From IMG/VR virus record IMGVR_UViG_3300031974_003462, positions 1 to 23,662 of that record: a DNA stretch of 23,662 bases. One strand, written 5' to 3'. The DNA is from a virus. The notes beneath the pieces are model-generated. The model saw nothing but the letters and a program-made list of their open reading frames with translations, did not search any database and had not been told where the DNA came from. Both the position numbers and the translations under genes were made by a program. This document shows positions 8,638 through 21,298 of this stretch, one piece after another. Positions within the stretch are counted from its first letter, which is position 1; every line of letters starts with the position of its first letter.

Positions 8638-9017
8638 GCTTCATAAACTCTTCTAAATGTTGCTGTTGCTGAATAAAAATTGTCATATGCCCAAGTTTGA
8701 TTCCAACTTGAACAAACTACTTTTACAGTTAATTCATTACCGCTTTCATTTGTATCATCAACAGTATAATCAAAAGATGTTGCTCCTGCTTTACTTTCAA
8801 AAAATCCAATTATATCATCTATTTCTGCTTTTGGTCGAGTAGCAAAACTTAAACTAAACTCTTGTTCTAAAGAGTTTATACCATCTTGTACTCGTTGTTC
8901 ATATCCATCGCCAAATTTTGCGATGTGTACTCGTGGAGTATTTGTAGTACTTAATCCTTTATCTGGCACTACCTGTCTATTTCCAAAACTTGCTCCTGTG
9001 CTAAATCCTACTGCCAT
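8634..9017 (-). CDS. Minor tail protein, lambda gpM-like
   Basis: 127 residues. It has the features of the phage minor tail protein family that includes lambda gpM: a central FGDGYEQRVQDGINSLEQEF segment, a hydrophobic helix around IDDIIGFFESKAG, and an ending like SATATFRRVYEA. It begins at the tape-measure stop (TAATG) and ends in an ATGA overlap with the L-like gene, giving the lambda order H-M-L. In lambda, gpM acts in building the tail-tip complex below the tape measure. The length is close to the lambda protein (109 residues). Confidence 0.87.
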   Translation of the reverse strand: MAVGFSTGASFGNRQVVPDKGLSTTNTPRVHIAKFGDGYEQRVQDGINSLEQEFSLSFATRPKAEIDDIIGFFESKAGATSFDYTVDDTNESGNELTVKVVCSSWNQTWAYDNFYSATATFRRVYEA

Positions 9018-12000
9018 TATCGTGCTAATAACCCTCCTGGTCGTTTTTGTATTTCAATTTCTCTTATTACTACGTTTGAAATTTGTTTACCAAATGCTTT
9101 TGTTTCTTCTGCATCTGAATCTGTTGAAACAGTTCCATCTGTGCTTATGTTTACTGTAACATTGTTTACTCCGCTACCTGCGCCTTTTAGCTCAACTGGA
9201 ATACTTCTACTGTTTCCAAGTGGTACGACTGCTTCTGTTCCGTGAAGTGTTGCTTGATATCCTGAGTCTGGGCCTGTTGCAATACCACCGCTCATATAAG
9301 AACGATATCCTGGAGAAGACATAACTCCTCCTGATCTACCCATAGGCCCAGGAGTTGGAAGAGCTGCCATTGCAGTACCAGAACCTGGAAAGAGTGCGTT
9401 CATGATAAACATTCTTATTGCCATTTTTGTAAGATCAGCAATTACAGATTTTGCAAGTTCACTAAAAGCTTCTTTCATAGTTTTTGTTCCATCTACTACT
9501 GAGACAATTGCATTTGCAACTCCATCGGACATAGCAGTTCCTATTCTATCCATTCCTGCTGCTATAAAATCTAAATTCATTTTTGCTTGTTGAAAGATTG
9601 TTTCTTGATCTATTAGAGCTTGTTTTGCTGCTTCTCTTTCTTGATCTGTATACACCTTTTTCTCACCAAACATATTCATCATTTGACTTGCTATAAGATC
9701 AGGATCATTTGCTGCTTTTGCAATTGCAGCTCCTTGCTTTGTAAAACCAAGACCTCCTAATCCAAATCTTGTACCTAGTTCTCCTCTTCCTCGTACTAAT
9801 TGTTCGTCTTGTCCTTCTTTTCTAATTCGTGCTCGATCTTTTAAAATTTGATTTATATTTTCTTCTTTGTCAATTTGAAAACCAAGCATTTTTAAACTTT
9901 CCTCTAAGAAAGTTTTTTGTTCATCACTTAATTTTAATTTTTCTTCGTTTGCTGCTATTAATATGTCATCAAATATAGTTTGTTGATTTTTTAATTTTAA
10001 AATTTGTTGTTCTCTCTTTTGATAGTCTAGTACTTTTTCTGCTACTGCAGTTCTTAAAGACGCATTTTTTTCTAATCCTGCTCTTTCTGCGTCAATTCTT
10101 GCAATTTCTGTATCAAAACTTTTATCTAAAGATTTTTCTATAATTTCTTGTACTCCTAGTGCAGTCTGTCGAGTGGTATTCAGTTTTGCATATTCGTCTC
10201 GCAAATCTTGAAGTTCGTCTTTTGTTAATTGTAAAAGCGCAACATCAGGCATACCAAATATATTCTCAACTCTTCCGGTTTCCATTGCTTGAGTAAAGTA
10301 ATCATCATCAACAACTTTTCCTAGTTCTGTTTCTAATGTTTTCTTTAGAGTCTGTAAAGCTTTTTCATTTTGTTCTAAAAAGAGTTTATTTGTATTTAAA
10401 GCAGTTGAAACTGGGTCTTTTTTAGCATAAGTAGCTAAAAATCCTGTGAGTTGCTGTTGATATTGTTTTTCTGTTTCAGTATATGCTTTTAATTTTCCAT
10501 TTAAATTTACATACTCCTCTCCTAATCGCATTAAATTTTGAATCTGCTGTTTAGTAGGTTTTTCATGTCTATCATAAGCAGCTGCAATTTCAAGTAAAGA
10601 ATCTCTATATTCAGGGTGAGCAAATTTTGCTTGTTCTTTTAGGTTTTTACTAAAGTCTATTAATGAGTTCATACTATCAATTGCAACATTAATTTCTTCA
10701 GCACTCAGTATAAAGCCTTCATATTCTCCAACTCCAAATTTTGCATCACCAATAGTACGTTGAATTAGATTACCTAAAGTTTTAGGAATTTTTTCTCCTT
10801 TCTCTATCAAATCCATGTACTCACCGTTAGCAGCATCTAGTAGCGTCAGTGTTTTTTTATAATCTTCTATATCTCCAAGAATAGTATTTCCTCTTCCAAT
10901 TTGACCTAGCAGATCTTGAGAAGAAATAGAATTTGCAAATTGTGTAAAATATTCAGTTGAAGATATAAGACCTTCGTCTCTTATTTGATTCATCTGTTTT
11001 AAAGAATCTGTTGCATCATCAACTCCTTTTTTAAATTTTTCAGTGTTGTCAATTGCATCTTGTATAGCTTCACTTAAAGGATCAAAATACCTATACGCAC
11101 TTTTTAATAAATCAAGTGCAATTAATCCAAATCCAATATAACTTACATATTTAAAAATTCCTAACATTGCTGAGGAAAATCGTTGACTATTTTGTGTTCT
11201 TCTTTGTAAACTTTGTTGTTCTTTTAATTCGTTTTGTTGTCTTGCTAATTCTTCTTTTGCAAAACGAGTTTCGGTATCAATTGACATTTTACCTTCTGCT
11301 GCTTTTTTATAAATAACTAATTCATCAAGATCAGCTTTATATTTTGCTTTTATATTATCTGGCAATGTACCAACAAATCCTTTTCCTTTTTGAGCAGCTG
11401 ATCTATACGCTGTTAAAGATGCTAAATTTTTATCTTGAAATTGAGAACCATATCTTGCTGCAAATTTTGACTGTAAACTTGTAGCTTTTCCTTTTATTTG
11501 GTCTTCTGGCATGCCTTGTAAAGCGGCAGCAGCTTTTAATACAGACATGTCTCGATTTAACTCTGCTATTCTACCTTTTATTTTACCACTTGCTTCAATT
11601 GCTGACGCTTCGATTGCTCCAAAGTTTGGTAAAAAACTTCGAAGAACACTACCTGCAAATAGTCCAAAAGCTGCAATTAGTGCAGTAATATTATTTGTAA
11701 ATAGTGGTAAAACAGTTTGTGCTAAGTTTCCTACTAGAACTTTTATATCATCTAACACATCATTGAAAGCTTGTCCAAATTGATTTACGGCAAAAGCTGT
11801 TGGATCCATAATTTTCATTATACCACCAAACTTTTTCTCTGCTTGCTCTAAAACTTCATTTGTAACAGCTTGAGTTCTTTGGAATGGTGTTAAGGTTTCT
11901 TTTGATACTCCCAGTGCGTCTGCATATTTACGAAGTGCAGGGTCAAGTCTTAGTATAATACCAAGTTCGTCAAGTAATTCTGGTTCAGCTTTTGTAACAC

Positions 12001-12547
12001 CTCGAACAAGACGATTAAAAGAGTCTGTAACATCTCTACCTAAAATAAGAGAAGCATTTGCTGCTGCTGTTCCTAATTCAGTTAATTGTGAAGCATTTAA
12101 TCCAGAAGCAATACCAATTGCTGCAGCTTGAGAAGCTTCTGAGTAACTAATTTGAGCAAAAGTTGCCTCACGAATACTTCCTGCTAAACTTTTGTACATA
12201 ACTCCAGTAGCTGCTCCATATGCGAGCTGACCTTCCATTAAATTTTTAAAGTTGCCTGATTCAGTTAAAAATCTATAAGCTGCGGATACTGCAAAAACCT
12301 GTGCGGCTAAAGTTGCATAAATAGGAACAAGCCCGCCTTCAATTGTTTGAGCTTGTTTTGCAAATGCTTTTGATGAATTTGAAGTTTGATTCGATAAAGA
12401 TTTAAGTCGTCTATCTGATTCTTGAACATTCTTTGCTACCGAACCAACGTCTTTACCGGCTTGTTTTGCATTTTTACCAAGTTGTTTTAAAGAACCTTTA
12501 TCGGTTACTTTAATCTCAACTGAACCGCCTTTTACATTTTTTGCCAT
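9017..12547 (-). CDS. Tail tape measure protein
   Basis: 1176 residues, a long mostly helical protein directly after the tail chaperones and before the gpM-like gene, the conserved tape-measure position. The N-terminus is Lys-rich (MAKNVKGGSVEIKV). A conserved Ala-rich block follows (about 100-240, including GLNASQLTELGTAAANAS). Two hydrophobic segments that could cross a membrane lie at about 284-305 and 465-485, then long heptad-like Glu/Lys/Gln helices. The C-terminal region has a DGTKTMKEAFSELAKSV-type segment and the ending GGIATGPDSGYQATLHGTEA, seen in many tape measures. It sets tail length and is ejected with DNA. At the usual roughly 0.15 nm per residue, a tail near 170 nm is inferred. 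No lysozyme or peptidase domain was recognised inside it. Confidence 0.93.
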   Translation of the reverse strand: MAKNVKGGSVEIKVTDKGSLKQLGKNAKQAGKDVGSVAKNVQESDRRLKSLSNQTSNSSKAFAKQAQTIEGGLVPIYATLAAQVFAVSAAYRFLTESGNFKNLMEGQLAYGAATGVMYKSLAGSIREATFAQISYSEASQAAAIGIASGLNASQLTELGTAAANASLILGRDVTDSFNRLVRGVTKAEPELLDELGIILRLDPALRKYADALGVSKETLTPFQRTQAVTNEVLEQAEKKFGGIMKIMDPTAFAVNQFGQAFNDVLDDIKVLVGNLAQTVLPLFTNNITALIAAFGLFAGSVLRSFLPNFGAIEASAIEASGKIKGRIAELNRDMSVLKAAAALQGMPEDQIKGKATSLQSKFAARYGSQFQDKNLASLTAYRSAAQKGKGFVGTLPDNIKAKYKADLDELVIYKKAAEGKMSIDTETRFAKEELARQQNELKEQQSLQRRTQNSQRFSSAMLGIFKYVSYIGFGLIALDLLKSAYRYFDPLSEAIQDAIDNTEKFKKGVDDATDSLKQMNQIRDEGLISSTEYFTQFANSISSQDLLGQIGRGNTILGDIEDYKKTLTLLDAANGEYMDLIEKGEKIPKTLGNLIQRTIGDAKFGVGEYEGFILSAEEINVAIDSMNSLIDFSKNLKEQAKFAHPEYRDSLLEIAAAYDRHEKPTKQQIQNLMRLGEEYVNLNGKLKAYTETEKQYQQQLTGFLATYAKKDPVSTALNTNKLFLEQNEKALQTLKKTLETELGKVVDDDYFTQAMETGRVENIFGMPDVALLQLTKDELQDLRDEYAKLNTTRQTALGVQEIIEKSLDKSFDTEIARIDAERAGLEKNASLRTAVAEKVLDYQKREQQILKLKNQQTIFDDILIAANEEKLKLSDEQKTFLEESLKMLGFQIDKEENINQILKDRARIRKEGQDEQLVRGRGELGTRFGLGGLGFTKQGAAIAKAANDPDLIASQMMNMFGEKKVYTDQEREAAKQALIDQETIFQQAKMNLDFIAAGMDRIGTAMSDGVANAIVSVVDGTKTMKEAFSELAKSVIADLTKMAIRMFIMNALFPGSGTAMAALPTPGPMGRSGGVMSSPGYRSYMSGGIATGPDSGYQATLHGTEAVVPLGNSRSIPVELKGAGSGVNNVTVNISTDGTVSTDSDAEETKAFGKQISNVVIREIEIQKRPGGLLAR
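12082..12111. repeat. 30-bp segment shared with the gpJ-like gene (copy 2)
   Basis: Matches 4102-4131 at 28 of 30 bases, with 22 consecutive identities (12090-12111). It encodes ASGLNASQL in the conserved N-terminal block of the tape measure (about residues 147-155), in the same frame as the copy in the gpJ-like gene. No third copy was noticed. Confidence 0.6.
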
Positions 12548-12894
12548 TACTTTCTTTTAATATTAGACGAGGATATTCCACCTGTGTTCGCCTTACTTTG
12601 ACGCATTTTTGCATCTTGCTTTCTTTTTTGTTCTGTATTTATTTGAGTAGAATGTTCGTTTTCTATATGCTTTAAAAACAGTACTACTTCTTTTTTATTT
12701 TCTATTTCATATATTTCTAACAAGGGAAGTAAAGCTGCCCAGTCTTTTCCCATATATGTTCCACTCATTCCTTCAAATCTATCTGGCATGAGTGAGTAAA
12801 TAAAAAATGCCATTTGTACCTCGTGTGGAAAGTCTTCCATTTCGGGAGGCATTTTTTCTGGGTCTGGCTCCTCTCCTAATTGTTCACAGATCAT
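12547..12894 (-). CDS. Tail assembly chaperone extension (gpT-like part), probably made only as a -1 frameshift fusion
   Basis: Read from its own ATG at 12894, this is a 115-residue acidic N-terminal and basic C-terminal helical protein. That ATG has no Shine-Dalgarno sequence, and the same frame stays open upstream to 12978, inside the end of the preceding chaperone gene and across its stop. Shifting from that gene by -1 at the A AAT TTT heptamer adds YEEQVKQILALIKRKYKDSI and six more residues before M115-start, giving a fusion of 140+26+115 = 281 residues. Lambda and many siphoviruses make gpG and gpGT this way; the T part recruits tail tube protein to the tape measure. The gene ends in a TAATG overlap with the tape-measure start, as expected. 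The stand-alone ORF is less likely to be the real product. Confidence 0.8.
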   Translation of the reverse strand: MICEQLGEEPDPEKMPPEMEDFPHEVQMAFFIYSLMPDRFEGMSGTYMGKDWAALLPLLEIYEIENKKEVVLFLKHIENEHSTQINTEQKRKQDAKMRQSKANTGGISSSNIKRK

Positions 12895-12939
12895 TAAATA
12901 TTTATCAATATCTATTGAATCTTTATATTTTCTTTTAAT

Positions 12940-12978
12940 AAGAGCAAGTATTTGTTTTACTTGCTCTTCGTAAAATTT
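12940..12978 (-). promoter_or_regulatory. Programmed -1 ribosomal frameshift signal: slippery heptamer plus hairpin
   Basis: On the coding strand, the last codons of the 144-residue chaperone read GAA AAT TTT ACG. A-AAT-TTT (12978-12972) is an X-XXY-YYZ slippery heptamer in the correct phase. After 3 nt (12971-12969) comes a perfect 11-bp inverted repeat, AAGAGCAAGTA / TACTTGCTCTT (12968-12958 and 12950-12940), around a 7-nt loop. The zero-frame TAA (12959-12957) lies at the top of this hairpin. The -1 frame continues without a stop into the gpT-like part. The 3-nt spacer is shorter than the usual 5-9 nt, but the lowest A-U pairs could open. No U-run follows the stem, so it does not look like a terminator. 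Confidence 0.85.
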
Positions 12979-13391
12979 TCAAGTTCTCCAACTGTTTCAG
13001 TAACCCATTGATCAAAGTCTACTGAATTTTGCATAAGAACTTCTACGTTTTCTTGACTAAAAGGTAGTTCGCCTGCTCTGCTTGATACATCATCTGCTGT
13101 AAGTAGTAATTGAGCAACGTACTCATATTTAAAACCACTCCACCCTTTTATAACGGAAGCTGTGTACTCCGATAAAAACTTCTCGTCATCAAGTTGTTCT
13201 TCAAACCCTCTGGTTTTCTTGTTAAATTTTTGAGAAACACATTTTGCTCTCAACTTAATTAATTCTTCTCTGGAAAGATAGCAAAGATTAACTTTGAATC
13301 CGTCCATTCCTGGATAGTCAAATTCTACTGTTTTACTTGGTGTTAGTAGTGATTTGAGACTAACCGGTTGTGTTTTTACTTCTTCTGTCAT
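12957..13391 (-). CDS. Tail assembly chaperone (gpG-like)
   Basis: 144 residues, with the look of siphovirus tail chaperones: a Leu/Ser-rich start (VSLKSLLTPSKTVEFDYPGM), then a LSREELIKLRAKC helix, a FNKKTRGFEEQLDDEKFL helix and VIKGWSGFKYEYVAQLL. Lambda gpG-type proteins coat the tape measure before tail tube polymerisation and are absent from virions. A good ribosome site (AGGAG, 13396-13400) precedes the ATG, just downstream of a terminator-like hairpin. The last four codons lie beyond a slippery site, so a fraction of ribosomes should produce the 281-residue fusion instead. Placement between tail tube and tape measure supports the call. Confidence 0.9.
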   Translation of the reverse strand: MTEEVKTQPVSLKSLLTPSKTVEFDYPGMDGFKVNLCYLSREELIKLRAKCVSQKFNKKTRGFEEQLDDEKFLSEYTASVIKGWSGFKYEYVAQLLLTADDVSSRAGELPFSQENVEVLMQNSVDFDQWVTETVGELENFTKSK

Positions 13392-13437: not shown

Positions 13438-14646
13438 TTATGATAAGTCATTACCTGTGTATGTAACTTTTGCTTCATAATTACCTGCTGTATCATCGCC
13501 TGGATCAATACTTGCTGGTAATGCATGGAAGTTTACATCTAATGAAATAATATCATCAATAGAATGTGTTGGTACTTCTAAATGACAGTTTGGCATATTA
13601 ACAACAACTTTTGGTGAATTTGCTCCACCAATGTTAAATGTTAAATCAAAGTCATTTGTAATAGTTGTTGTACTTTCTATTATATCTTCAAATAACTCTG
13701 CTGATTTATCTGTATCATTGTTCAAGTAGCAAGTAAAGTTACCGCTAATTGATCTTGTACCTGTTACATTACCTAGTGGTTGGTTAACTACACCAAGAGT
13801 TTCTGGTGTAAGGAAAGTAATATTATTTTCCATAGTTATATTACCACCTGTTAAAACTAAGTCATAACTTGAATTAAAATTACCACTACCACCTGTTGTA
13901 GCTGTTAGTGATGTTAATCTATTTCTAATGAAATTACTTGTAGTTGAAGTTCCTTCGGTAATTAAAGCTGTTGGAGTTGGAGCATCAGCACCACTTTCTG
14001 TGATGATTTTACCCATACCACTCCAGTTAATTGTTGCAATTCCATCAATATCAAAATCGATACTTGCTGAATTTACAACACAACCTTCTATCTTATAAGT
14101 AAGATTTGTAGAACTATTTGCACCACCCATCTCAAAGTAAAGATCGAATGTACCTAAAGCTGCTACTTCTGAAGCTGTCCAATTGACCTCCATACTAGAG
14201 TCGTTATTTACTACAGGAACTGTAGCTGTTGCATCTCCATCTAGATCAGGACCTGCCCATACTGAAGCTGTTGAACCTGCACCAAGTGTAAAGCTTGTTG
14301 CTCCTACAAAGTATGCCCATAATGCTTCTTCAACTGCGTGCTGAGGATTTCCAGTGATAGAAGCACTTGGCTCCCATACATCTCCAACTGCAGGTACAGC
14401 ACCAAATGGTCTCATATAAGTTGAGAAACTCCATTCTGCTGGCGCATAAGAATCAGTAAACATTTGTCTACTTCTTCTACTTCTACCGTTGGCATCAGTC
14501 ATTTCATTAAGTGTTATTTCACTTGTATTTGTGGCTTGAGAAAAACTAAATCCATCTAACACTGGAAGCTCCCACATAACTGCAGTTGAGCCAGAAGGTG
14601 TCATAAAGACTTTCGTATCTCGACTAAAATAAAATTGGTCTGCCAT
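13438..14646 (-). CDS. Major tail tube protein, apparently with two tandem related domains
   Basis: 402 residues, between the probable tail terminator and the chaperones, where the tail tube protein normally sits. It starts MADQFYFSRDTKVFMTPSGS. The strong ribosome site (AAGGAG, about 8 nt before the ATG) and following hairpin fit high expression. Two segments 166 residues apart align: FDLYFEMGGANSS (167-179) with FDLTFNIGGANSP (333-345). Each is followed by a Cys at +21 or +22 (C189, C354) and a SI(D/DD)-type strand (SASIDFDIDGIA, about 193; THSIDDIISLD, about 360). This suggests an internal duplication, as in the T5 tail tube protein, whose two-domain subunit forms trimeric rings that mimic hexamers. 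Tail tube identity is based on position, size and beta-rich composition; the duplication is my reading and is less certain. Confidence 0.85.
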   Translation of the reverse strand: MADQFYFSRDTKVFMTPSGSTAVMWELPVLDGFSFSQATNTSEITLNEMTDANGRSRRSRQMFTDSYAPAEWSFSTYMRPFGAVPAVGDVWEPSASITGNPQHAVEEALWAYFVGATSFTLGAGSTASVWAGPDLDGDATATVPVVNNDSSMEVNWTASEVAALGTFDLYFEMGGANSSTNLTYKIEGCVVNSASIDFDIDGIATINWSGMGKIITESGADAPTPTALITEGTSTTSNFIRNRLTSLTATTGGSGNFNSSYDLVLTGGNITMENNITFLTPETLGVVNQPLGNVTGTRSISGNFTCYLNNDTDKSAELFEDIIESTTTITNDFDLTFNIGGANSPKVVVNMPNCHLEVPTHSIDDIISLDVNFHALPASIDPGDDTAGNYEAKVTYTGNDLS

Positions 14647-17424: not shown

Positions 17425-18903
17425 TTAAGTTGCTTTATATTGTAGTCCCCATACGGACGTAGCGTTTGCTATGATATCATCAAATCCAAGTCTTTGTGAA
17501 GCCACAAGTACTCTTCTTTGGTTCTGTACATCATAGTCAGATTCTATTGTAACACCTCTTAATCTTGGCATTACATAGTTTCTTGTATTAACTGCTAGTG
17601 CATAGAACTTCGAAACTGCTGGTGTTGCGAATTCGTCGACAAGTAATACTCTTGATCCGTATACTTGACCGATTTCACCGTTAAGTTTTGTTGCCATATC
17701 GCCAACTAAGTTAACGTCTGCGAACTCACCATCTTCTAGTAGATTGAAGTACTCTTGCTGGTTAACTAGATAGATAACGTCTGATGGATTAACACCATAT
17801 TTACCCATATTATTTCTAGCTGCTAATAAGTTTGCTGCTGTTAGAGATTCTGATGCAAATGCTGTTGCTGACTGAGTTTTGTACTCAGTTGCTGGTGATC
17901 CACCGTCTCCTGCTACTGCTTTAGCAACAAGACCGTTGAATGTAGCACCACTTGTACCATAAACACCGTCACCGTGGTTACCCACTAGAATAGCGTTTTC
18001 AATACCTCTTGCATGTGATCTCACCATGGACTCTCTTAGTAGAGGAAGTATTGGAATAATTGCATCTTCTTCTGTTTCGTTTCCTAGGAAAGAAGTTGAA
18101 ATCAACTTTTTGGTTGAAAGTGTTTTCTCTGTTAGATCAACACCACCATATGGTGAACCATAAGCATCACCTCTTTCTTCTAAGTTACCATGTGGTGATG
18201 AACCACTTGCTGCTTGGTTAGAAGTAAATTCTGCATAACCAGCATCTGGTAAAATAGGTAGGATCATATTAGCTGATGTCATTTCGATTTCTCTAAATAA
18301 CGGTGCTAATACTAGTTCATTTTGAATATCTCTTTCTACATTTGCAGATACGATTTGCTCAAAGTCTGCTGAAGATACTTGAACACCTGAATGTTCGTTC
18401 ACTTTTTGCATAATTGATTTTGTCATTTCTGTTTCATATCCTTTACCTGTTGCCAGACCTAAGAATTTTGTATCAAGGATTTCATTTTCAAAAGCTTTTT
18501 TCCAATCACCATTAGAACCTCTATCTGAGAAAACTCTCTTAGATTCTCTGATGTGTTGAATTTCTTCTGATTTTTCTTTTAACTCAGTTCTAAGTTCATT
18601 AACGATATTCTCAAGATTATCATTCTTTTCGCTAAATCTCTTTTCAACGTCAGTCATTAGCTGTTCTGCACCAGTCATAACTGATACTACAACTTCTTTC
18701 TGCTTTTCCTGTTCTGCTTCGATTTGTGCTTTTTGCTCAGCTTCTACTAGAGCAGCCTTTTCAGCAGCTTCCTTAGCTGCTTTCTCTTCAGCTGCTTTTG
18801 TTTCAGCTTGTTGCATTGCTAGTTTGGTAGCTGCTTTTTCAGCTACTTCTTTAGCAAAAGCATCAAGGTCAAAGCCCTCAGGAGCTTTCTTTTCTTCGCT
18901 CAT
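17425..18903 (-). CDS. Probable separately translated scaffold-capsid protein from an internal in-frame start
   Basis: M197 of the fusion (MSEEKKAPEGFDLDAFAKEV) is an ATG at 18903 with AAGGAG ending 7 nt upstream, a better ribosome site than that of the full-length start. The product would be 492 residues: coiled-coil scaffold then capsid, without protease. The protease ends before residue 160; the stretch 160-196 looks like a linker. A virion needs hundreds of capsid subunits but few proteases, so internal initiation gives a sensible ratio. Overlapping in-frame products of this kind are known for other phage head genes, such as lambda C and Nu3. Direct evidence would be an N-terminal peptide beginning at M197 or S198. 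Confidence 0.72.
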   Translation of the reverse strand: MSEEKKAPEGFDLDAFAKEVAEKAATKLAMQQAETKAAEEKAAKEAAEKAALVEAEQKAQIEAEQEKQKEVVVSVMTGAEQLMTDVEKRFSEKNDNLENIVNELRTELKEKSEEIQHIRESKRVFSDRGSNGDWKKAFENEILDTKFLGLATGKGYETEMTKSIMQKVNEHSGVQVSSADFEQIVSANVERDIQNELVLAPLFREIEMTSANMILPILPDAGYAEFTSNQAASGSSPHGNLEERGDAYGSPYGGVDLTEKTLSTKKLISTSFLGNETEEDAIIPILPLLRESMVRSHARGIENAILVGNHGDGVYGTSGATFNGLVAKAVAGDGGSPATEYKTQSATAFASESLTAANLLAARNNMGKYGVNPSDVIYLVNQQEYFNLLEDGEFADVNLVGDMATKLNGEIGQVYGSRVLLVDEFATPAVSKFYALAVNTRNYVMPRLRGVTIESDYDVQNQRRVLVASQRLGFDDIIANATSVWGLQYKAT

Positions 18904-19491
18904 GCGATTCTCCTTATTGTCGGCTTGCGCCACTTTAGACTGCCCAACGTCTTCAGTTATAACTGAATCTGCTGAGTTAGTCTTTATAAAAGATTCCTTA
19001 AACTCATTGTATGCGTCCATACTATCAAAACTTTTTGCTAATGAAAAAGTTGCTCCTTGGTTACAAGGAACTGATACTACAGAAACTTCAAAAAGTTCAG
19101 CATCTTTGATTCTTAATCCACCAGTGTCAGGAATGTGATCTGCATCTTTTACACGAAAACCTACAGAAAATGCTCCTAGAACACCGTCTTTAATTAAATC
19201 TGTGATTTCACCAGCTGCTTTTGATATTTTCGCTGTGAATTCAAGTCCATTTTCAACTGTCTTAACACCTGTTGCTCGACCAATTGGTTTGTCATAGTTA
19301 TGGTTGTAAAGAACAATAGGATTAGTTAAATAGTTATCTACTCCTCCTTTTGTCCATGCTTCCACTTCAATTACATCACCTGCTCTGTCTTGAGCATTTG
19401 TGCTAGCCAGTCCTTTTATTTCTACACTTCCATCTGCTTGTTCGCCAAGTGACTTAAATGTATTAGTCCAATGAAAAATTTTATTACTCAT
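17425..19491 (-). CDS. Prohead protease fused to scaffold domain and HK97-fold major capsid protein
   Basis: 688 residues with three parts. Residues 1-155 are an HK97-type (S78/U35) prohead protease: H64 in NPIVLYNHNYDKPIG, S109 in LGAFSVGFRV, and an acidic E135 in the AELFEVSVVSVPCN strand are the likely active-site residues. Residues about 197-315 are an Ala/Glu/Lys-rich coiled coil (EEKAAKEAAEKAALVEAEQK), the scaffold or delta-domain type. Residues about 316-688 look like an HK97-fold capsid, from the SDRGSNGDWKKAFENEIL stretch through LPLLRESMVRSHARGIENAI to the end LQYKAT. Fusion makes protease and capsid one polypeptide, but an internal start with a strong ribosome site can also make capsid alone. 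The start at 19491 lies inside the preceding 82-residue gene (8-bp overlap). Self-processing between scaffold and capsid is inferred from HK97. Confidence 0.93.
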   Translation of the reverse strand: MSNKIFHWTNTFKSLGEQADGSVEIKGLASTNAQDRAGDVIEVEAWTKGGVDNYLTNPIVLYNHNYDKPIGRATGVKTVENGLEFTAKISKAAGEITDLIKDGVLGAFSVGFRVKDADHIPDTGGLRIKDAELFEVSVVSVPCNQGATFSLAKSFDSMDAYNEFKESFIKTNSADSVITEDVGQSKVAQADNKENRMSEEKKAPEGFDLDAFAKEVAEKAATKLAMQQAETKAAEEKAAKEAAEKAALVEAEQKAQIEAEQEKQKEVVVSVMTGAEQLMTDVEKRFSEKNDNLENIVNELRTELKEKSEEIQHIRESKRVFSDRGSNGDWKKAFENEILDTKFLGLATGKGYETEMTKSIMQKVNEHSGVQVSSADFEQIVSANVERDIQNELVLAPLFREIEMTSANMILPILPDAGYAEFTSNQAASGSSPHGNLEERGDAYGSPYGGVDLTEKTLSTKKLISTSFLGNETEEDAIIPILPLLRESMVRSHARGIENAILVGNHGDGVYGTSGATFNGLVAKAVAGDGGSPATEYKTQSATAFASESLTAANLLAARNNMGKYGVNPSDVIYLVNQQEYFNLLEDGEFADVNLVGDMATKLNGEIGQVYGSRVLLVDEFATPAVSKFYALAVNTRNYVMPRLRGVTIESDYDVQNQRRVLVASQRLGFDDIIANATSVWGLQYKAT
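18904..18915 (-). promoter_or_regulatory. Internal Shine-Dalgarno site for the capsid start
   Basis: The coding strand reads AAGGAG (18915-18910), AATCGC, then ATG (18903). A full AAGGAG at 6-nt spacing in the middle of an otherwise open frame is unlikely to be required by the protein (it encodes K-E-N), and it lies exactly between the protease and scaffold domains. Confidence 0.8.
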
Positions 19492-19732: not shown

Positions 19733-20940
19733 ATTTCTTCCTCATTTTCTGTTGGCCTACCACCCTCGATTGGGTTAGCGGCACTACCTGCGATATTTGC
19801 AGGAATTCTTGGTGTATCAAATCCTTCCACTGCTTCAAGATTTAATTTCTCCCTTGCTTCGTTAGGTGTCATAATACCTGTATTGACCAAAGAAGCAAAA
19901 TATGCTGCTTGATCTTTTAATTCTGGTTGTAGTGATGGAACATTTGTTACATCTTCTACAAGTCTAAAACCGAAAAATCTTTCAAAAGATTTCATTACTT
20001 TCTTTACTATTGGTAGTATTGTTTCTAAGTAATACATTCTTTGATTTGGTCTTATATTGGCATTATTACCGCTATCCATAAGAATAGGCGGAACTCCTAA
20101 TGCTTCAAGAATAATTCTTTCGTTTGACTTAATTGCCTCTTGAAAGTCTAATTCTTTAAAATTAACTTCTGTCAAATTATCGACTTCAAGTCCACCATCT
20201 AAAAATAGTGGTCTTCTACCACCAGTGTTTGGATTGTATCTAGCAACCCAAGCCTGCAACATTCTTTCTTTAATTTTTTCAGAAAGAGTGTTAGGTGACT
20301 TTAGTACCAATCCTGGTACTGCTCCATTTTTGAAAAAGTTATCCTGAAAATTTCTCATATTTACAAGTAACTGCATTGTTCGATGTGCTGGTTTTAGTCT
20401 TGGCACACCTCTATAAATGGAGTGAAAACTGTTCTCTTTTATATGTATAATTTCGTTTACTGAGTAGTCAATAGAATTGTCAAAAGAATATCTGCTTACA
20501 TAAGTATCTTCATCAGTTTCTATTGTTACTTTATCAGCAGGTAGATGATACATATGCATACCATCAAAATAAATAAAAATATTTCCATCAATAAGTAAAT
20601 CTGTGATTAAATTTCTTTTAAATGTACTAATATCTTGAAATGGGTTTGGTTCTTTATTTAAAAGTAAATCTACACGTGTTTTTCTTACATTTTTAAATAC
20701 AGGTGTCATTCCACCTATTTGATCTTGAACTAGAAAAGGAATATCAGAGCAATCATCAACAATCATATTTACTGCTCTGTTTACTACTTCTAACTGCTCG
20801 TATGCATTTTTATAGCTCGTGATATTCTCACGACTATCTACTGTAAGTCCTTCATTTCTAGAAATTACATATTGTGAAGGATTTAGTTTCTCTTCATCTG
20901 ATTGAGTACGTCTACCCAATATAAAATCATACCATGCCAT
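19729..20940 (-). CDS. Portal protein, HK97 family
   Basis: 403 residues, typical of HK97-type portals. Recognisable parts: MAWYDFILGRR start; QLEVVNRAVNMIVDDCSDIP (about 49-68), the early helix common to the family; NLITDLLIDGNIFIYFDG (about 110-127); HIKENSFHSIYRGVPRLKPA; FKNGAVPGLVLKSPNTLS; FQEAIKSNERIILEALGVPP; and a C-terminal GIMTPNEAREKLNLE segment. The dodecameric portal forms the DNA channel at one capsid vertex and binds terminase during packaging. It starts 14 bp inside the end of the HNH gene and ends in an ATGA overlap with the 82-residue gene. No C-terminal fusion is seen. Confidence 0.94.
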   Translation of the reverse strand: MAWYDFILGRRTQSDEEKLNPSQYVISRNEGLTVDSRENITSYKNAYEQLEVVNRAVNMIVDDCSDIPFLVQDQIGGMTPVFKNVRKTRVDLLLNKEPNPFQDISTFKRNLITDLLIDGNIFIYFDGMHMYHLPADKVTIETDEDTYVSRYSFDNSIDYSVNEIIHIKENSFHSIYRGVPRLKPAHRTMQLLVNMRNFQDNFFKNGAVPGLVLKSPNTLSEKIKERMLQAWVARYNPNTGGRRPLFLDGGLEVDNLTEVNFKELDFQEAIKSNERIILEALGVPPILMDSGNNANIRPNQRMYYLETILPIVKKVMKSFERFFGFRLVEDVTNVPSLQPELKDQAAYFASLVNTGIMTPNEAREKLNLEAVEGFDTPRIPANIAGSAANPIEGGRPTENEEEI

Positions 20941-21298
20941 GTTTATCTCTTTGTATTTCTACCCATCTTTGCTGTTTTTCAGCAGTTATTAATTTTGGTC
21001 GTTTGCCATAGATTGAATGTAATCTTAAATGATGTTTATGGCAAAGTGTCACTGTTTTAGTGTATATTTGTTCTTTGTACTCATTTATAAATGATTCTCG
21101 TAAACTTAGTATGCTTTCTTCGTCATTAATTTCTAATTTGTTATCTGCTATCCATTTTTCAAGTAGTTCTGTAAGTCCGTAGTAATGATGAAAATCTAAT
21201 TCATCAGTAGAACCACAAATGTAACAGGCAGCTTCTTTTTTATACGCGGATTTTGCTTTATCTCTTACGTATTTTACTAAGTCTCTCTTAAGTGTCAT
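20927..21298 (-). CDS. HNH endonuclease next to terminase
   Basis: 123 residues. It has a zinc-site pattern C25-x-x-C28 (ACYICGS) with C86 and H89/H90 (TLCHKHHLRLH), and the HNH core at H37-H38 (LDFHHYYGLTELLEKW). The ending (KQQRWVEIQRDKHG) is shared by small HNH proteins often seen in marine phages. HNH proteins beside terminase genes in cos-type siphoviruses, such as HK97 gp74, stimulate terminase cutting; that role is plausible here. Its position between terminase and portal, with the portal start inside its end, argues for a fixed packaging component rather than a recent homing insert, though a homing origin cannot be excluded. A near-consensus promoter lies just upstream; no clear Shine-Dalgarno precedes the ATG. 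Confidence 0.88.
   Translation of the reverse strand: MTLKRDLVKYVRDKAKSAYKKEAACYICGSTDELDFHHYYGLTELLEKWIADNKLEINDEESILSLRESFINEYKEQIYTKTVTLCHKHHLRLHSIYGKRPKLITAEKQQRWVEIQRDKHGMV

Follow-up and report, generated by a model that had tools for sequence, protein, structure and literature searches.

The marine phage represented by the window (the whole stretch of DNA analysed, a 23.7-kb virus fragment of 23,662 nucleotides) very probably makes two versions of its tail assembly chaperone, to judge from its sequence, by a -1 slip of the ribosome at a fixed spot. Its relatives, T5 included, appear to reach the same joined protein via other signals, some of them forward (+1), and thus both the signal and the direction of slippage would have changed in evolution.

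On its minus strand, the window carries a siphovirus head-tail module with genes for terminase, portal, capsid, tail terminator, major tail protein, tail chaperone, tape measure, minor tail proteins, and a lambda J-like protein. The two chaperone frames, G and T, lie between the major tail protein and tape measure genes (Table 1), as do the G/GT chaperones of long-tailed phages, and both are homologous to chaperone families: in a family search, G matched the tail assembly chaperones of PHROG 313 (E 8e-16) and T those of PHROG 3914 (E 8e-21). Columns 170-258 of the 258-column PHROG 313 profile are matched by the T of a T5-like phage, and therefore fused G-T forms belong to this family. Against Pfam Phage_TAC_5 (PF08890), the window protein scored 15.1 bits, below the gathering cut-off of 27. 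The predicted fold of G (pLDDT 79.5) matches those predicted for T5-like tape measure chaperones (E down to 4e-13), and sequence and fold searches of the PDB gave no significant match. Elsewhere in the module, a 688-aa ORF (17425-19491, minus strand) resembles a head maturation protease in its N-terminal part and a major head protein in its C-terminal part, and is thus a predicted protease-capsid fusion. Additionally, a small ORF in the terminase-portal interval (20927-21298, minus strand) has an HNH endonuclease-like pattern (CYICGSTDELDFHHYY...CHKHH).

Table 1. Features of the chaperone region of the window.
Feature	Coordinates	Strand	Basis
Major tail protein, upstream of G	13438..14646	-	Head-tail module
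G, zero-frame tail assembly chaperone, 144 aa, stop TAA 12959-12957	12957..13391	-	ORF; PHROG 313
Slip heptamer A_AAT_TTT, in phase with G	12972..12978 (12978-12972)	-	Sequence; codon constraint in 109 relatives
Spacer ACG, 3 nt	12969..12971 (12971-12969)	-	Sequence
Candidate stimulatory hairpin, 11 bp, 7-nt loop	12940..12968	-	Fold z -7.6; covariation
T, -1-frame chaperone domain, 141 aa (YEEQVK...KRK)	12547..12972	-	Open frame; PHROG 3914; homologous to +1-class T
Apparent 115-aa ORF, part of T	12547..12894	-	Lys in place of the ATG in nearest relatives; start lacks a Shine-Dalgarno match
Tape measure protein, overlapping the T stop at its start	9017..12547	-	ORF; head-tail module

Read directly from the minus strand of the window, the G frame runs GAA AAT TTT ACG AAG AGC AAG TAA and thus holds an in-phase heptamer of the X_XXY_YYZ form of -1 frameshift sites. 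The hairpin that follows has the arms AAGAGCAAGTA (12968-12958) and TACTTGCTCTT (12950-12940), which pair without a mismatch around a loop at 12957-12951, and the zero-frame TAA consists of the two innermost bases of the 5' arm and the first base of the loop. Its fold is at -14.4 kcal/mol, in comparison to -2.3 +/- 1.6 kcal/mol for shuffled sequences, none of which equals it (0/200). The 39-nt pattern from the heptamer to the end of the stem occurs once in the window and in none of 100 shuffles of the window; an Rfam search of the window returned no match. After the slip, the -1 frame is free of stops for 141 aa and its stop overlaps the tape measure ATG at 12547, such that the predicted fusion joins G residues 1-140 to 141 further residues, 281 in total. 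A preliminary description of this DNA is borne out by these readings, having reported the phased A-AAT-TTT, a perfect 11-bp inverted repeat 3 nt after it, a zero-frame stop within the hairpin, a -1 frame open to the tape measure start, and a fusion of that length.

We are highly confident that -1 slippage at A_AAU_UUU, together with the hairpin, would yield the G-T fusion. Translation of G, upstream of the tape measure gene, would give the 144-aa chaperone. With tRNA-Asn on AAU and tRNA-Phe on UUU, a fraction of the ribosomes would be held by the hairpin just downstream; both tRNAs would slip back one base together, onto AAA/UUU, and the slipped ribosomes would continue with YEEQVK... and translate the T domain up to the tape measure start. 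By analogy with lambda, G may coat the tape measure protein and G-T may recruit the major tail protein. We infer the slippage, its efficiency, and the role in assembly; the sequence, its phase, the selection on the heptamer codons, the covarying stem, and the conserved T domain in the shifted frame are direct observations.

A nucleotide search of isolated phages gave no match to the window, and protein searches were therefore used. Proteins from 893 phage records, chiefly T5-like, align to most of G at identities of up to 40%. An IMG/VR scan with the G protein found 79 loci, and alignments, further members, and T5-like phages extended the search to about 330 loci; a scan with the protein of L079 recovered only its own contig. 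In all but a few of the 79 loci, AAATTTT is followed by the zero-frame stop at a distance of exactly 19 nt. None of the loci has G and T fused in a single frame, and the open -1 frame with its conserved domain recurs, reaching the T ORF in 154 homologous loci. The zero-frame stop is four codons past the slip in 135 of the 152 A_AAT_TTY loci, where the -1-frame codon lying over it is GTA (128/135) or CTA (7/135). Two loci (L170 and L328) have GAATTTT in place of the perfect heptamer. Aeromonas phage Akh-2 (L087) was excluded because of an interrupted T frame in a record seemingly full of frame errors; its neighbouring genes are also split into short ORFs, and the breaks in this record are probably sequencing errors.

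Codon counts in 109 different -1-class G genes point to selection on the synonymous positions of the slip codons. The slip Asn is AAT in 108 of these, compared with an AAT:AAC ratio of 364:237 (61%) in the rest of these genes, and similarly the slip Phe is TTT in 108, against a TTT:TTC ratio of 554:164 (77%) elsewhere; the loci are related, so that these counts are not independent events, and the same constraint is also present in distant branches. The third base of the next Thr codon is free (ACC 35, ACG 32, ACT 20, and ACA 12). Conservation of heptamer and stem in related phages had been proposed as a check at the outset, and the heptamer is found to be invariant and the stem to covary. Overall, the comparative evidence for -1 programmed frameshifting, drawn from these sequences, is very strong.

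These data also bear on the alternative that T is an independent gene initiated at ATG 12894 or at some other internal codon, perhaps termination-coupled to G, the heptamer and hairpin being incidental or regulating initiation. Start codons do exist in the T frame, the GenBank records of T5 and most of the relatives shown give T as a separate gene, and some Shine-Dalgarno-like match is present in the first 50 T codons of about half of the +1-class loci. However, no T start within the first 50 codons has a Shine-Dalgarno match in 90 of 102 -1-class loci, while most G starts do have one. The ATG at 12894 also has no such match, and the eight nearest relatives compared have Lys (AAA) in its place, in agreement with the earlier opinion that the apparent 115-residue gene is not independent. 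An independent T leaves unexplained the invariant AAT TTT, as well as the conservation of the peptide that the T frame encodes from the slip site to the ATG, and we regard this alternative as very unlikely.

In the 45 nt after the site, the mean fold z is -3.44 in the -1 class versus 0.0 in the +1 class (p = 7e-21), and 81% of the -1 class fall below -1.5. Two stem arrangements share the 5' arm CAAGTA: in the first, which is that of the window, a 7-nt loop separates the arms (53 different sequences), and in the second the 3' arm lies further downstream (24 different sequences). The 3' structure is supported by covariation in both, with counts of changes on both sides and covariation scores above those of 500/500 shuffles (36 and 24 aligned sequences). 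For instance, pair 8-28 is GC in 24 sequences and CG in 12. In the second arrangement, pair 16-29 is CG in 11, AU in 6, UA in 3, and GC in 1, and pair 15-30, which begins with the stop codon's third base, is GC in 19 and AU in 5. The conserved core CAAGTA/TACTTG starts 8 nt past the heptamer, and the first pair is about 3-8 nt downstream in relatives with a clear stem, the 3-nt spacer being confined to the longest stems. The very short spacer noted previously therefore holds for the window but not as the arrangement of the family, since with the core 8 nt downstream it reflects a lengthened stem. The proximal stem is weak or absent in basal A_AAT_TTY loci (L079, L096-L104, and L110), and thus a stem is not required throughout.

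It is highly improbable that the hairpin is instead a transcription terminator or mRNA processing signal between G and T. It is a perfect stem followed by a few T residues, but the sequence after it is ATTAAAAG, with no U tract, and it sits at a set distance from the heptamer, within coding sequence that precedes the essential tape measure gene. The stem moreover accompanies A_AAT_TTY loci and not TTT_CGN loci, which have none (mean fold z 0.0). Transcriptional slippage on AAAATTTT, or a +2 shift, has next to no likelihood as a substitute for -1 ribosomal slippage: the site is A/T-only, but its A and T runs, of just four each, are short for slippage by a polymerase, the G_GGA_AAC of relatives has no long run, and the in-phase heptamer, 3' stem, and codon-specific AAT/TTT constraint are ribosomal signatures. 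All three alternatives were considered and rejected on this evidence.

The -1 heptamer of the window is one of three signals, nearly exclusive of each other, that occupy the same fusion site in about 310 homologues: the final tally is 152 A_AAT_TTY (-1), 88 TTT_CGN (+1), 71 G_GGA_AAC (-1), and 2 others. The +1 class includes T5-like phages and a large marine clade. In 91/91 of its loci, T is in the +1 frame and TTT CGN is in the zero-frame phase at the homologous Phe, inside the frame overlap, as it is in T5. Elsewhere in +1-class genes, Arg is mostly AGA, and before TTT, AAC is preferred to AAT. The two classes, -1 and +1, have homologous T domains (E values as low as 4e-21). As for direction (+1 versus -2), codon conservation favours UUU -> UUC slippage, while a 277-aa join in Salmonella phage Shivani fits -2. 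The preliminary description had held that relatives without the heptamer and the open -1 frame would count against it; T5 and many marine relatives are of this kind, yet they do not refute the -1 reading because in them a candidate +1 site takes its place at that codon.

The G_GGA_AAC loci form a mainly separate clade (L158 and L254-L332), for which 'freshwater' is a loose label not taken from sample habitats. The site is one codon upstream of the window's, reads GGA AAC in 71/71 loci, and has little proximal structure and no strong stem. A_AAT_TTT is absent there because the Asn codon is always AAC; three loci inside the clade (L294, L304, and L316) have AAATTTT or AAATTTC instead. Two of the motifs are combined, as A_AAT_TTT_CGT, in only six loci, all marine and in the +1 class (L183, L191, L193, L200, L203, and L206), and this sequence could in principle slip either way.

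In T5 (L253, AY543070), T5.143 and T5.142 are annotated as two hypothetical proteins. The G frame reads CTA GAT ACT TTT CGT AGC (slip region of T5.143, CTAGATACTTTTCGTAGC), in which TTT_CGT is in phase; the open +1 frame starts shortly before this site and extends through T5.142. A joined chaperone CDS is present in only one of the T5-like records examined, that of Shivani (L337, record 93207-94038); its product in a structure library is 277 aa, whereas +1 at TTT_CGT gives 276. T5-like phages (Demerecviridae) share with the window homologous G and T domains, gene order, and fusion at the same invariant Phe, but they have T in the +1 frame, with UUU_CGU or UUU_CGA as the site, and lack the -1 heptamer. 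The authors of the Sugarland genome stated that, like T5, the Sugarland chaperone has no predicted frameshift signal, citing the T5 structure paper of Zivanovic et al. 2014 (PMC6256483).

Phylogenetic analysis of 77 G+T sequences, excluding the junction, gave an unrooted tree on which no older state is assigned, with at least 2 changes of direction and 8 of signal type; a quick tree of 145 rows gave the same change count. The +1 loci L106-L109 are nested within a -1 clade (support 100/98), where L109 adjoins the -1 locus L096 (100/98). A single clade of all -1 sequences, a group defined by the trait and not by the tree, is rejected (AU p = 0.0066). L096 and L109 differ by CAG versus CGT after a shared AATTTT and by a 2-nt indel downstream. 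Similarly, L106-L109 and L096-L102 are close relatives that would shift in opposite directions, with AATTTT or AACTTT shared before CGT versus CAG, plus the 2-nt indel. We consider it likely, from these comparisons, that one fusion joint is served by three interchangeable signals (A_AAU_UUY -1 with a hairpin, G_GGA_AAC -1, and UUU_CGN +1), that direction switched at least twice, once between the close relatives L096 and L109, and that T5 has an overlooked UUU_CGU +1 site.

The G/GT system of lambda has been reviewed, and such frameshifts are widely conserved in tail assembly, in long-tailed phages with varying sequences, including -1 shifts and a probable +1 case in archaeal viruses; in lambda, the binding partner of G is the tape measure protein and that of T the tail tube protein, and neither G nor T is present in virions (PMC5009743). 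The window resembles lambda in its -1 direction, its G/T frame overlap, its short G plus G-T fusion, and their place in the gene order, after the major tail protein and before the tape measure; the likeness drawn here is one of arrangement, not of homology of this family (PHROG 313/3914) to lambda G or T. It differs in its strong covarying hairpin and in its A_AAU_UUU, an A/U-only site as opposed to the G-rich site of lambda, a contrast also drawn previously. The tape measure chaperone slip sites of phiCbK (AAAAAAC) and Colossus (GGGAAAC) also show heptamers exchanged within one phage group, and GGGAAAC is the site of the 'freshwater' relatives, but both are -1 and a change of direction was not reported (PMC3556154). 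Influenza A PA-X is made by +1 frameshifting at UCC_UUU_CGU, for which UUU_CGU was defined as the slip site (PMC3498833). The UUU_CGN motif, at which P-site Phe slips from UUU to UUC in that case, is conserved in the +1-class relatives, but PA-X belongs to a eukaryotic virus and ribosome, and no common descent is implied. The window is a further member of the known G/GT frameshift type, and the probable family-wide exchange of signal and direction is new; a literature search, outside which most subscription journals lay, found no paper on a UUU_CGN site in T5-like or marine phages or on a switch of direction.

Across the family, slip site, stem, and even direction vary in a dense natural series, while the invariant Phe of the joint and the protein product stay. 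Such a series would permit direct tests of signal replacement without loss of the product, for instance of whether A_AAU_UUU_CGU slips both ways. Additionally, a specific +1 site is proposed for T5 and its relatives, whose chaperones are mostly annotated as two genes in the records examined.
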